Source of the DNA: Candidatus Bathycorpusculum sp.
Lineage (GTDB): Archaea > Thermoproteota > Bathyarchaeia > Bathyarchaeales > Bathycorpusculaceae
Reading direction: 5' to 3'
NCBI GenBank assembly: GCA_009778385.1
Contig: WRJX01000096.1
Location: 1-48,016 of the forward strand
Length of the DNA stretch: 48,016 bases
Positions 39,171-44,388 of this stretch are shown here, in pieces. Made by a program: the position numbers and the translations under genes. Numbering within the stretch: the first letter of the stretch is position 1; every line of letters starts with the position of its first letter. The notes beneath the pieces are model-generated. The model had not been told where the DNA came from. It searched no databases and saw only the letters and a program-made list of their open reading frames with translations.

Positions 39171-40424
39171 ATGGTAACTGATGATTTGCATTCCTTGCTA
39201 GCGAAGTTTGTAAGAACTAACACGAACGTCGCTGATATGCAGTGGGACAGAAGAATGAGTCCACGGTTACTGTTCAACCCTTATTCAAAAGATTATGAAG
39301 AAAAAAAGAAAACAGCACACTATTTTTTACTTGTTGCGTCAATTCTTGACGATCAAATGGTTGGTTTTTCAGAAAACGCTAGAAACCTACTTATTAACTT
39401 GCATGAAAAATTTGGAACCTCACGGCTTTTTGAAATCACTAAACCACATCTTTTTGGCGAAGAAATAGTAAAATATAGTTTTTACAATTATCTTGGCCCA
39501 CGCAAAGAAACTATTCCGGAAACTTTAGCTGCAGTAAACATTTTTGTCAAGTTCAAAGCTGAAAAAGACTTAATACGTTATGCACTAAAATTTGCAAAAC
39601 CTAAAGATTTTGTTGAAGGAGTAACTAAAAACATTGAACGAATGAGAGATAAAGACAAAGCTTGGACGTACATGCGTTGGATGGCGCGTCCAGAACCTGA
39701 CCTTGAAATCTTTAAGCATTACTCACCCGAAGATTTACAGGTACCCTTAACAAGAGAAAATGCCAGCGTTGCAATAAGCTTAGGCTTGATAAACTCTACT
39801 GTACCGTATTTATGGAAAGATGAAACCGCTGCCCTAAAAGCACAACTAAAAATCACCGAATATGCCAAACGAATTTTTCTTTACGATCCAGCAAAAGCAG
39901 ATTACCCATTTTTCCTTTTAGGCAGATGGCTTAAACGTAAAAACCTTAACCGAAACACCCTAAAAGAGGCATTACAATTCTTTGAGCAAATCCAAAAAGT
40001 TACAGGGCAACCTCAAGCGCATTATCAAAAATTAAGCCGTTACAAAAGCGGTTGGGAAAAAGAAACCGCACGAATACTAATGCAGATGCACATTTCTTAT
40101 GGCTATGAAACCATCACGTTTCCGTTACCAGGAGACAAGTATACACCAGATTTTATTTTAGACAAAGAAATTAACGGTAGAAAAATTGTTCTTGAACCGC
40201 ATTACGAAATGAATCTTAAGCAGTCTTCAAAGTATTCCCTGTTCAAACAAACCTATGGACACAAATTTATGCTTATTTTACTTTTGAAAAATGACTTGAT
40301 ATCATTCTTTAATAAAAGAAACATACTCACAAGTGACGTGTGTGATGATGTGTGGCCAATAGAGTTTGTTGGTTTACTTATAGACAAGATAAAATCCGGC
40401 GAGTATGGTCAAGATAAAAAATAA
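39171..40424 (+). CDS. Helix-hairpin-helix (DUF2400-like) domain fused to PD-(D/E)XK nuclease-like domain
   Basis: Residues 1-260 resemble DUF2400/TIGR02757, relatives of helix-hairpin-helix DNA glycosylases. The signature is YMRWMARPEPDLEIF (167-181) with LQVPLTRENASVAISLGL (189-206) and YDPAKADYPFFLLGRW (238-253). Residues 290-417 look like a PD-(D/E)XK fold: helix GWEKETARIL with Glu296, YTPDFIL with Asp327 and IVLEPH with Glu342, where His344 stands in place of the usual Lys. So one chain may recognise a lesion or mismatch and cut DNA. It is inserted on the opposite strand between secY and DUF106. ATG start; function is inferred. Confidence 0.65.
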   Translation: MVTDDLHSLLAKFVRTNTNVADMQWDRRMSPRLLFNPYSKDYEEKKKTAHYFLLVASILDDQMVGFSENARNLLINLHEKFGTSRLFEITKPHLFGEEIVKYSFYNYLGPRKETIPETLAAVNIFVKFKAEKDLIRYALKFAKPKDFVEGVTKNIERMRDKDKAWTYMRWMARPEPDLEIFKHYSPEDLQVPLTRENASVAISLGLINSTVPYLWKDETAALKAQLKITEYAKRIFLYDPAKADYPFFLLGRWLKRKNLNRNTLKEALQFFEQIQKVTGQPQAHYQKLSRYKSGWEKETARILMQMHISYGYETITFPLPGDKYTPDFILDKEINGRKIVLEPHYEMNLKQSSKYSLFKQTYGHKFMLILLLKNDLISFFNKRNILTSDVCDDVWPIEFVGLLIDKIKSGEYGQDKK

Positions 40425-40474: not shown

Positions 40475-40491
40475 TAGGCTAAAAAAGCCTA
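40475..40491. terminator. Hairpin between convergent genes
   Basis: TAGGCT-AAAAA-AGCCTA forms a 6-bp stem with a 5-base loop. On the minus strand it is followed by a T-rich tract, so it could end the secY/ribosomal operon and also insulate the convergent 39171 gene. Confidence 0.45.
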
Positions 40492-42362: not shown

Positions 42363-42803
42363 TTATTTGTTGTGGATTTCAGCTTTCTTTAATTTTATTT
42401 CCAGTACGCCGTTCTTGAAAGTTGTGTGTATATCGCTGGGAATGACTACTTTCGGTAGATTTAAACTTTTATAGTATCTGCGCTCTTTTGATTTTGCAGA
42501 CAGCGTAATTTTCTGGTCTTTCACATTTATTTTGAAGGATTCCTTATTAAAGCCTGCGATTTCTGCAACTATAGTTATCCAATTATTCTCTTGAAAAATG
42601 TCAATTAACGGTTTAGGATCAACAAATTTGCGCTTGCTAAAACTTTTGGGGGTCCTAAAACTTTGGCTAGAACGGACACTTTTAACAGGCTTAATAGTTT
42701 CACTTCGCAGGGTTTTTGGTTTACTTTTAACAACCTTATTATCATTATCATTAAGGTCTAGCCACTTACGATTTTTAGTGCTTCTACGCCATTTTGCACT
42801 CAT
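42363..42803 (-). CDS. Hsp20/alpha-crystallin-like protein inserted in the ribosomal operon
   Basis: 146 residues. The first ~70 are very basic and Ser-rich (KSVRSSQSFRTPKSFSKRK). The rest fits an alpha-crystallin/CS beta sandwich: PLIDIFQENNWITIVAEIAG, FKINVKDQKITLSAKSKERR and FKNGVLEIKLKKAE, with the NGVLEIKL strand typical of Hsp20. The C-terminal IXI motif is absent. The basic extension may tether it to RNA or ribosomes. Its position between uL30 and uL15 is unusual. Confidence 0.75.
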   Translation of the reverse strand: MSAKWRRSTKNRKWLDLNDNDNKVVKSKPKTLRSETIKPVKSVRSSQSFRTPKSFSKRKFVDPKPLIDIFQENNWITIVAEIAGFNKESFKINVKDQKITLSAKSKERRYYKSLNLPKVVIPSDIHTTFKNGVLEIKLKKAEIHNK

Positions 42804-44388
42804 TTTTCCCCCTCCAATTTACTTACGCATTTCTATATCGATACTATAAAAGATATCGCATATCAAAGGGCAAAAACACCTACAACGAGAAGAGAAACAT
42901 CATTAAAAGAAAAAACCGCCAAAAAACACATACCCCACATGCAAATCAAGTGGCTAATACACTTAATGCACACTTGTTTATAACCAAACTAACCGGCTCC
43001 TTTAAGAGGCTTCGGGACATCACGGTTATTTGGATTAAAAAGCCATTATAACCCACTTCTGATGGTTCTTGATAGATATAACTAAAATACAGACTACAAA
43101 AACTTGCCCTTGAGAGATGTGCCAATTTTATTGTTTTTTTAGCAAATTCATAGCCATTTTTTACAATTTTTTTCATATACATTAGATTTACAAAAAATTT
43201 ACAAACTATACTGCACGAAATATTTGCTTTTGTGCATCCTCGTTTAAAATTAAACCATAAACACAATGAAGCTATTGAATTAATATCTACTAATCATGCA
43301 TACACATATTTTAGAGCCATTAGCCATGTACAGTTTCGAGCAAGTTTCTACCTACCCTAAAATTGGATGCCAACTTAGGGGTTATTAATGTTTTTAATTT
43401 ATAGCTGCCATTACCTTTCTCAAAATATTGTCCTGACATAAACTCAGTCTGTAACGCTACTAATAACTATACTGAGGGATAAGCGCATACTCTTGGTGGA
43501 TACAGCTTAATAAAAGAAAAGAGAGCCAAAATAGCCAGACTGTATTGGAATTAAAATAGGTAACTTCAAGCTACAATCAGACCATACAAGCCCCAATATG
43601 GGATCAAACGTTAGCAGACACCGAAAATCAATTTAGAAACAGTGAAAACGCAACGACGTAGGAAGTACACAGTAACCATCATTTCAATGTATTAACACTG
43701 GAAAAGGTAGTGTTCCATGAAAGAAAAGGAGAATGTCGCATAACCCATATAGAAATGATAGAGAAGGTTATGCAATGCATGTGAACTGCAAACAACCAGA
43801 AGAAGTGTAAGACCTTGAGCTATGAACGGATCATCATTGTCAGATGCAGGTGGATTGATGACAACAGGTTGTTTCTGGCACGAATGTATGTGTTGTACTG
43901 GATAATTGACAAAAGGTTCTACAGGTGATGAGTTCTAATTCATGTCTGAGAGCTTTTCTGCTGCTAAAAGAAACTTTGGAACAAATGTAGATTGAGCCAA
44001 ATTCTGATGTTAGAAAAAGAATGCATCAACATATATCACAGTTATGGTAAAAGACATGACAGGTGGTGTTATGCTGATCATGTTTTTGAGATTTTCTAAC
44101 CATTTTTGTGGAGTTACTTGTTGACTAATTGTAGAGAACATCATAGCTTGAACAAGGTTGCTAAGTCAATGAGGACATTTATTAAAAAACTATCAGTGGA
44201 ATGTCTGTACTGAATTACTATAGGGACTATTTAGTGACGATATATTTTAGGAAAAATCAAAAAAGCGGAAATACTTTCAGGAAAAGATACGTTATAGCCA
44301 CTATGGAAGCCAAATTACCACTAAAAATACTTAAAGACAATAAAATGGTTGATTGAGAATTAAAAAAACAAAAATATACGCTGATCAG
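42804..44388. other. 1.6 kb gene-poor gap inside the ribosomal protein cluster
   Basis: No intact gene is recognised between the Hsp20-like gene and uL30. A 106-codon minus frame at 42946-43266 has poor composition. The stretch 43692-44165 looks like a decayed gene (listed separately). No tRNA or rRNA is apparent. The promoter of the hsp20-uL15-secY unit must lie near 42830-42870. Confidence 0.5.
43692..44165 (-). pseudogene. Possible decayed protein gene
   Basis: One minus-strand frame stays open for ~155 codons apart from an internal TAA and an internal TAG. Translated pieces are protein-like, for example VTPQKWLENLKNMISITPPV, QSTFVPKFLLAAEKLSDM and QKQPVVINPPASDNDDPFIA. About ten stops would be expected by chance in that length at this base composition. 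The upstream part continues in another frame, suggesting a further frameshift. I do not recognise the ancestor, and chance remains possible. Confidence 0.3.

Follow-up and report, generated by a model that had tools for sequence, protein, structure and literature searches.

DUF2400 (PF09674; TIGR02757) is a domain without an assigned function, and is scarcely mentioned in the literature searched. The canonical members examined keep a lysine and, mostly, the aspartate of a PLD motif, and the bacterial ones are proteins of 235–261 aa that carry no nuclease. The archaeal 8-oxoguanine DNA glycosylase AGOG needs K140 and D172, spaced 32 residues apart, for catalysis (PMC9638937), and the residues mutated in structures of the queuosine nucleosidase DUF2419/Qng1 (K199 and D231) show the same spacing. 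The GPD aspartate has been described as missing from HhH proteins that are not glycosylases (PMC8307549). Among nucleases, the closest described systems are T7 endonuclease I (Pfam Phage_endo_I), the stand-alone resolvase Hjc, and Bax1, a protein in its own right that partners the XPB helicase. In the cap-snatching endonucleases of viruses, such as the RNA endonuclease PA-Nter, the lysine of the PD-(D/E)XK motif has shifted from its strand to the following helix (ExT.....K; PMC2940753). A search of the open-access literature found no description of a DUF2400 domain fused to a nuclease. The protein described below joins parts that are known, and their combination is a new variant.

The window analysed here is a stretch of 48,016 nt from a genome of Candidatus Bathycorpusculum, a member of the Bathyarchaeia. 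It contains a forward-strand ORF of 417 aa with an ATG start (Table 1), which a first-pass annotation had read as a DUF2400-like glycosylase domain fused to a PD-(D/E)XK nuclease-like domain. The ORF, the segments RWMARPEPDLEIF and YDPAKADYPFFLLGRW, and residues Glu296, Asp327, Glu342 and His344 all lie where that annotation had placed them, and the fusion itself is borne out by two independent profile-level matches and two confident models. The ORF is not a chance reading frame, since it has a DUF2400 match, a PHROG endonuclease match, intact orthologues (58–88% identity within the genus) and low dN/dS. Purifying selection on the gene is strong, and is strongest in the nuclease half; in pairwise comparisons of the window gene with its near orthologues, dN/dS was 0.05–0.10 for the whole gene and 0.01–0.04 for the nuclease half alone. 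The locus encodes a conserved, selected two-domain protein.

Table 1. Coordinates of the fusion gene, its domains and key residues, and of other features. Positions are those of the window, except where a locus precedes the colon.
Feature	Position	Strand	Basis
Whole fusion gene, 417 aa	39171..40424	+	ORF, orthologues, dN/dS
N-terminal all-helical domain, residues 1–278, DUF2400-type, predicted HhH-GPD/AGOG/DUF2419-like fold	39171..40004	+	AlphaFold2, Foldseek
Asp162 codon, position of the Lys invariant in canonical DUF2400	39654..39656	+	21-sequence comparison
Pfam DUF2400 match, residues 166–251	39666..39923	+	hmmscan, E 2.5e-8
Thr194 codon, position of the PLD aspartate in canonical DUF2400	39750..39752	+	21-sequence comparison
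Predicted PD-(D/E)XK nuclease domain, residues 290–409	40038..40397	+	PHROG 945, T7 endonuclease I profile, model, Foldseek
Glu296, invariant, first nuclease-core helix	40056..40058	+	alignments A1, A4, A5
Asp327, PD motif (Y-T/K-PDF), invariant	40149..40151	+	alignments; aligned with T7 endonuclease I PDF
Glu342-Pro-His344, (D/E)xK position reads ExH; invariant Glu, with L099 having Arg for His	40194..40202	+	alignments
Lys354, invariant, helix after core strands, candidate migrated catalytic lysine	40230..40232	+	alignments; helix 349–362 in model
Hairpin-forming palindrome in the gap where the fusion gene and secY converge	40475..40491	.	consensus scan; terminator-like on - strand; no functional evidence
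Thermoproteota Cys4-bearing DUF2400 proteins	L125:1069-2304, L127:380-1660, L102:4046-5287, L128:934-2271, L129:1246-2637		

In the N-terminal half, the DUF2400 profile scored 34.7 bits by hmmscan, above its gathering threshold of 25, and TIGR02757 matched the same residues (E 1.1e-7) with 31.9 bits, below the NCBIfam cut-off of 139.2. An AlphaFold2 model of the whole protein, made from 26 sequences (pLDDT 84.8, pTM 0.75), is helical up to residue 278 and alpha-beta from residue 294 onwards. Foldseek searches with this model returned the queuosine salvage enzyme DUF2419 first (7u07; E 6.5e-4, probability 1.0) and also Pa-AGOG (1xqo; E 0.013, probability 1.0), giving the N-terminal half a predicted fold of the HhH-GPD type. 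The resemblance to AGOG and DUF2419 lies in this predicted fold, whereas profile searches showed no sequence similarity; none of the AGOG chains in the PDB was matched by the DUF2400 profile.

Ten representatives of the fusion family were compared with eleven canonical DUF2400 proteins (five from Bacteroidota, five from Thermoproteota, and the stand-alone Bathyarchaeal protein G151). The RWMxR and D-P motifs and residues of the terminal helix are common to both sets, and in alignments the fusions retain Arg169, Trp170, Arg173, Asp177, Asp239-Pro240 and Asp244. In contrast, the lysine seven residues before RWMxR, present in all eleven canonical proteins, is absent from all ten fusions, which have Asp, Ser, Gly or Glu instead. 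The PLD aspartate is found in nine of the eleven (G537 and G525 have Gly) and likewise in none of the fusions, where the position is Thr or Asn. The canonical lysine and aspartate are separated by 32 residues in the archaeal proteins that carry the aspartate, and by 35 in Parabacteroides. Judged by fold, position and spacing, they may well be the equivalent of the AGOG catalytic pair.

Because both putative catalytic residues are replaced in every fusion inspected, base excision by the N-terminal half is unlikely, and the active glycosylase of the first-pass annotation is rejected. The same evidence bears on the reading of the protein as a bifunctional enzyme, in which base removal by a working glycosylase, at damage or a mismatch, would precede cutting by the fused nuclease. 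The similarity of fold to AGOG and DUF2419 and the DUF2400 match above the cut-off are in its favour, but the pair is gone from the fusions while the stand-alone relatives G151 and G153 keep it, and we regard this reading as very improbable. Recognition without excision would be the simplest role for the N-terminal half, given that the GPD aspartate is also missing from non-glycosylase HhH proteins. An active DUF2400 partner encoded by the same genome was looked for across the genus, but no DUF2400 protein besides the fusion and its paralogues was found, save for a weak partial match in one genome (G021).

The C-terminal half matched PHROG 945, an endonuclease family, over residues 282–368 (E 4.3e-7), and the fusion protein also matched PHROG 9019, annotated as a Holliday junction resolvase (E 3.9e-5). 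A profile of the family found T7 endonuclease I chains with E values of 8.9e-6 to 2.5e-4, aligning the first helix and the PDF motif, while the match to Pfam Phage_endo_I was sub-threshold (E 0.0042; 17.2 bits against a gathering threshold of 29.1). Modelled separately, the nuclease half gave a pLDDT of 86.2 and a pTM of 0.82. Its best Foldseek match was Bax1 (8gy8; E 9.9e-4, probability 0.99), and AF1548, Can2 and Hjc were also found. The alpha-beta-beta-beta-alpha-beta core of PD-(D/E)XK enzymes is present by DSSP of the two models and by Foldseek. The Glu, Asp, Glu and His residues named by the first-pass annotation lie in the core of this confident model, and the PDDEXK profile match that it called for was found. 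By computation, the C-terminal half is a PD-(D/E)XK nuclease domain with its acidic residues intact.

These nuclease relatives raise the possibility of a branched-DNA resolvase of the T7 endonuclease I or Hjc kind, acting on Holliday junctions or forks, with the N-terminal half as a DNA-binding or dimerising scaffold that has no lesion role. The nearest sequence families of the nuclease half are T7 endonuclease I and the PHROG annotated as a Holliday junction resolvase, and Hjc is among its fold matches. However, of the 32 genomes in the genus, 29 encode Hjc, which leaves no vacant resolvase role, and a replacement of Hjc by the fusion is rejected; moreover, the N-terminal half keeps DUF2400 core residues that a mere scaffold need not keep. 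A resolvase is therefore an unlikely reading, if the least unlikely of the alternatives. Unlike T7 endonuclease I, the fusion has ExH in place of ExK, an additional invariant lysine (Lys354) and an N-terminal domain.

All 26 aligned sequences, a stand-alone copy from Micrarchaeota among them, share Glu296, Pro326-Asp327 and Glu342. The lysine position of the ExK motif is occupied by His344 in all relatives except L099, which has Arg, leaving the motif lysine absent throughout. A distant stand-alone protein (G532) reads LIEVHES at this point, again ExH. The first-pass annotation had singled out His344 as unusual; it does stand at the ExK position, but the arginine of L099 makes it less special, and Lys354 had been overlooked. 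This lysine lies 12 residues past Glu342, in the next helix, and is invariant in every alignment. Given the shifted lysine of PA-Nter, a precedent for geometry that implies no kinship, and the invariance of Lys354, it is plausible by analogy that Lys354 is a migrated catalytic lysine, with His344 as an accessory residue. The ExH motif could also mean that nuclease activity is altered or weak.

The same architecture was sought in related genomes, and 31 of the 32 genomes of the genus match the fusion family. In seven of them there is a paralogue at about 33–40% identity, and three genomes (G002, G021, G025) have the paralogue without the orthologue. Across the class, 44 of 257 Bathyarchaeia genomes match, most of them from one family, and a scan of 84,980 species yielded 37 loci. 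These are in MAGs that are Bathyarchaeal or broadly labelled as archaeal (Crenarchaeota, Nitrososphaerota), with two exceptions: a Nitrososphaerales MAG in which both domains are present (L070), and a Micrarchaeota contig that encodes the ExH nuclease domain alone, as a 185 aa protein without the DUF2400 half (L072:5965-6522). The fusion family is patchy across Bathyarchaeia. No relative of the fusion protein was found on viral contigs.

In a tree of the DUF2400 core, the ten fusions form one group (support 100/96) adjoining G151, one of the two closest stand-alone relatives (G151 and G153), both of which retain the lysine and the aspartate. The tree, rooted by midpoint, gives no direction of change. 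These stand-alone genes, in two genomes of one genus, each consist of two overlapping ORFs in different frames (L097:3674-4487 for G151 and L098:1331-2081 for G153; the ORFs in L097 are 98 and 181 aa), and may represent a gene with a frameshift, one that is truly split, or a case of recoding.

Other archaeal DUF2400 proteins are longer, at 411–463 aa, and carry both a Cys4 motif similar to that of endonuclease III (CX8CX2CX5C) and an extra C-terminal domain. This domain is of one kind in G310, G390 and G059 and of another in G537 and G525. In G525 it gave sub-threshold PD-(D/E)XK matches only (Cas4, E 0.0099; HSDR_N, 0.045), and in G310 a sequence search matched none of the PD-(D/E)XK families. 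For this reason, repeated fusion of DUF2400 to nucleases is at most suggested by the sequences.

In the clade of the window, about 10 genomes, the fusion gene is flanked by DUF106 and secY, which are read from the other strand, a position peculiar to this clade. The first-pass annotation had taken it to interrupt a secY-adk-DUF106 order. The placement between secY and DUF106 holds, but a genome that lacks the fusion at this site (G012; L155) reads secY-DUF106-cmk; adk is missing there too, and the fusion gene therefore does not displace it. In another (G015; L152), the site is occupied by a flavodoxin-like gene. In 18 other neighbourhoods, the fusion gene is followed by genes for an HExxH protein and a JAB-domain protein. 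The small HExxH and Prok-JAB genes form a convergent pair, which adjoins the fusion at L048:5397-6178 and is found away from the fusion in the window's own genome (L156:2748-3646), so that the two are rejected as obligate partners. No repair genes were found next to the fusion at the orthologue loci inspected, where secY/DUF106 or HExxH/JAB adjoin it instead. Elsewhere in the window (42363–44388), an ORF resembling Hsp20 by eye lies within the run of ribosomal protein genes, next to rpl15. Between it and the ribosomal gene that follows lie about 1.5 kb in which no convincing ORF and no tRNA or Rfam match was found, and the length of this gap differs among relatives.

Patchy spread outside the genus would suit a restriction-like defence system, in which foreign DNA would be recognised by the pseudo-glycosylase through a modified base and then destroyed by the nuclease. 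The ExH nuclease relative G532 is found beside a SNF2 helicase and a NOV_C-domain protein (L170:277-3857), both of which match PADLOC models, and this cluster is possibly a defence or restriction locus. Within its own genus, however, the fusion is near-universal, single-copy and stable in position. PADLOC models matched the fusion protein in no family and viral contigs hold no relative, for which reasons a phage or defence origin is rejected; defence as the present function of the fusion appears improbable.

The paralogues have surroundings of a different type. Their neighbours include a MrfB-like RNase H and a MrfA helicase (L065), a SF1 helicase, a RMMBL nuclease and a HhH-GPD protein (L067), a UvrD_C+PDDEXK_1 protein (L070) and a PDDEXK/Exo5-like protein (L071). 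A TIGR02757 gene of Parabacteroides also adjoins a DNA alkylation repair gene. The repair-type surroundings belong to the paralogues of 33–40% identity and vary between loci; they support a DNA-repair role for the family, and do so indirectly for the window gene. A protein of 180–188 aa with no known Pfam family adjoins the paralogue at two loci, on opposite sides (L065:4827-5393 and L066:7418-7960).

The transporter QueT is encoded near two of the paralogues (L066:8081-9302 and L067:9256-9753), and QueC is also present in L066. Together with the queuosine nucleosidase DUF2419 as the best fold match, this recalls 7-deazaguanine metabolism of tRNA (of the archaeosine or queuosine type), in which the N-terminal half would bind the base in the manner of DUF2419 and the nuclease would cut the tRNA. 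However, QueT is found in 29 of the 32 genomes of the genus, including elsewhere in the window's own genome, and being near-universal its proximity is weak evidence; the association is probably incidental and the queuosine link through these neighbours is judged weak. If the residue mapping holds, K199 and D231 of DUF2419 have no counterpart in the fusion, and the kin of its nuclease are DNA enzymes. A role in tRNA metabolism is the most remote of the readings considered.

The reading we narrowly favour, at slightly better than even, is that the fusion is a DNA-repair endonuclease consisting of a pseudo-glycosylase reader and a PD-(D/E)XK cutter. The two domains, their folds, their conservation and the loss of the lysine–aspartate pair are computed from the sequence, and from these we infer a DNA rather than RNA substrate, metal-dependent cutting, recognition of a lesion or distortion, and a role in repair. 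The N-terminal domain has kept its fold and much of the DUF2400/AGOG core (Arg169, Trp170, Arg173, Asp177, Asp239-Pro240), and since the putative lysine and aspartate of excision have been lost, it would act as a reader, presumably binding DNA where damage, a flipped-out base or some other distortion marks the site. By doing so it would place the nuclease domain, which would cut a phosphodiester bond with the help of a divalent metal. Glu296, Asp327 and Glu342 would be catalytic, assisted by His344 and probably by Lys354. The product would be a nick beside the site, giving a route of incision that involves no base removal.

A wider proposal, which we hold tentatively and at somewhat less than even, is that a glycosylase fold without excision may serve its own nuclease by reading lesions or modified bases, in a single-chain form of archaeal incision repair, and that DUF2400 may have gained nuclease-like C-terminal domains more than once: the ExH domain of the fusions, the Cas4/HSDR_N-like domain of G537 and G525, and possibly a third kind in G310 and G059. 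That the putative catalytic pair is lost from the fusions and kept by their nearest stand-alone relatives would point to nucleic-acid recognition as the task that DUF2400 has retained. The setting is the Bathyarchaeia, abundant uncultured archaea that are little studied and whose repair pathways are poorly known. If the proposal is true, folds of base excision can be recycled into enzymes of direct incision.
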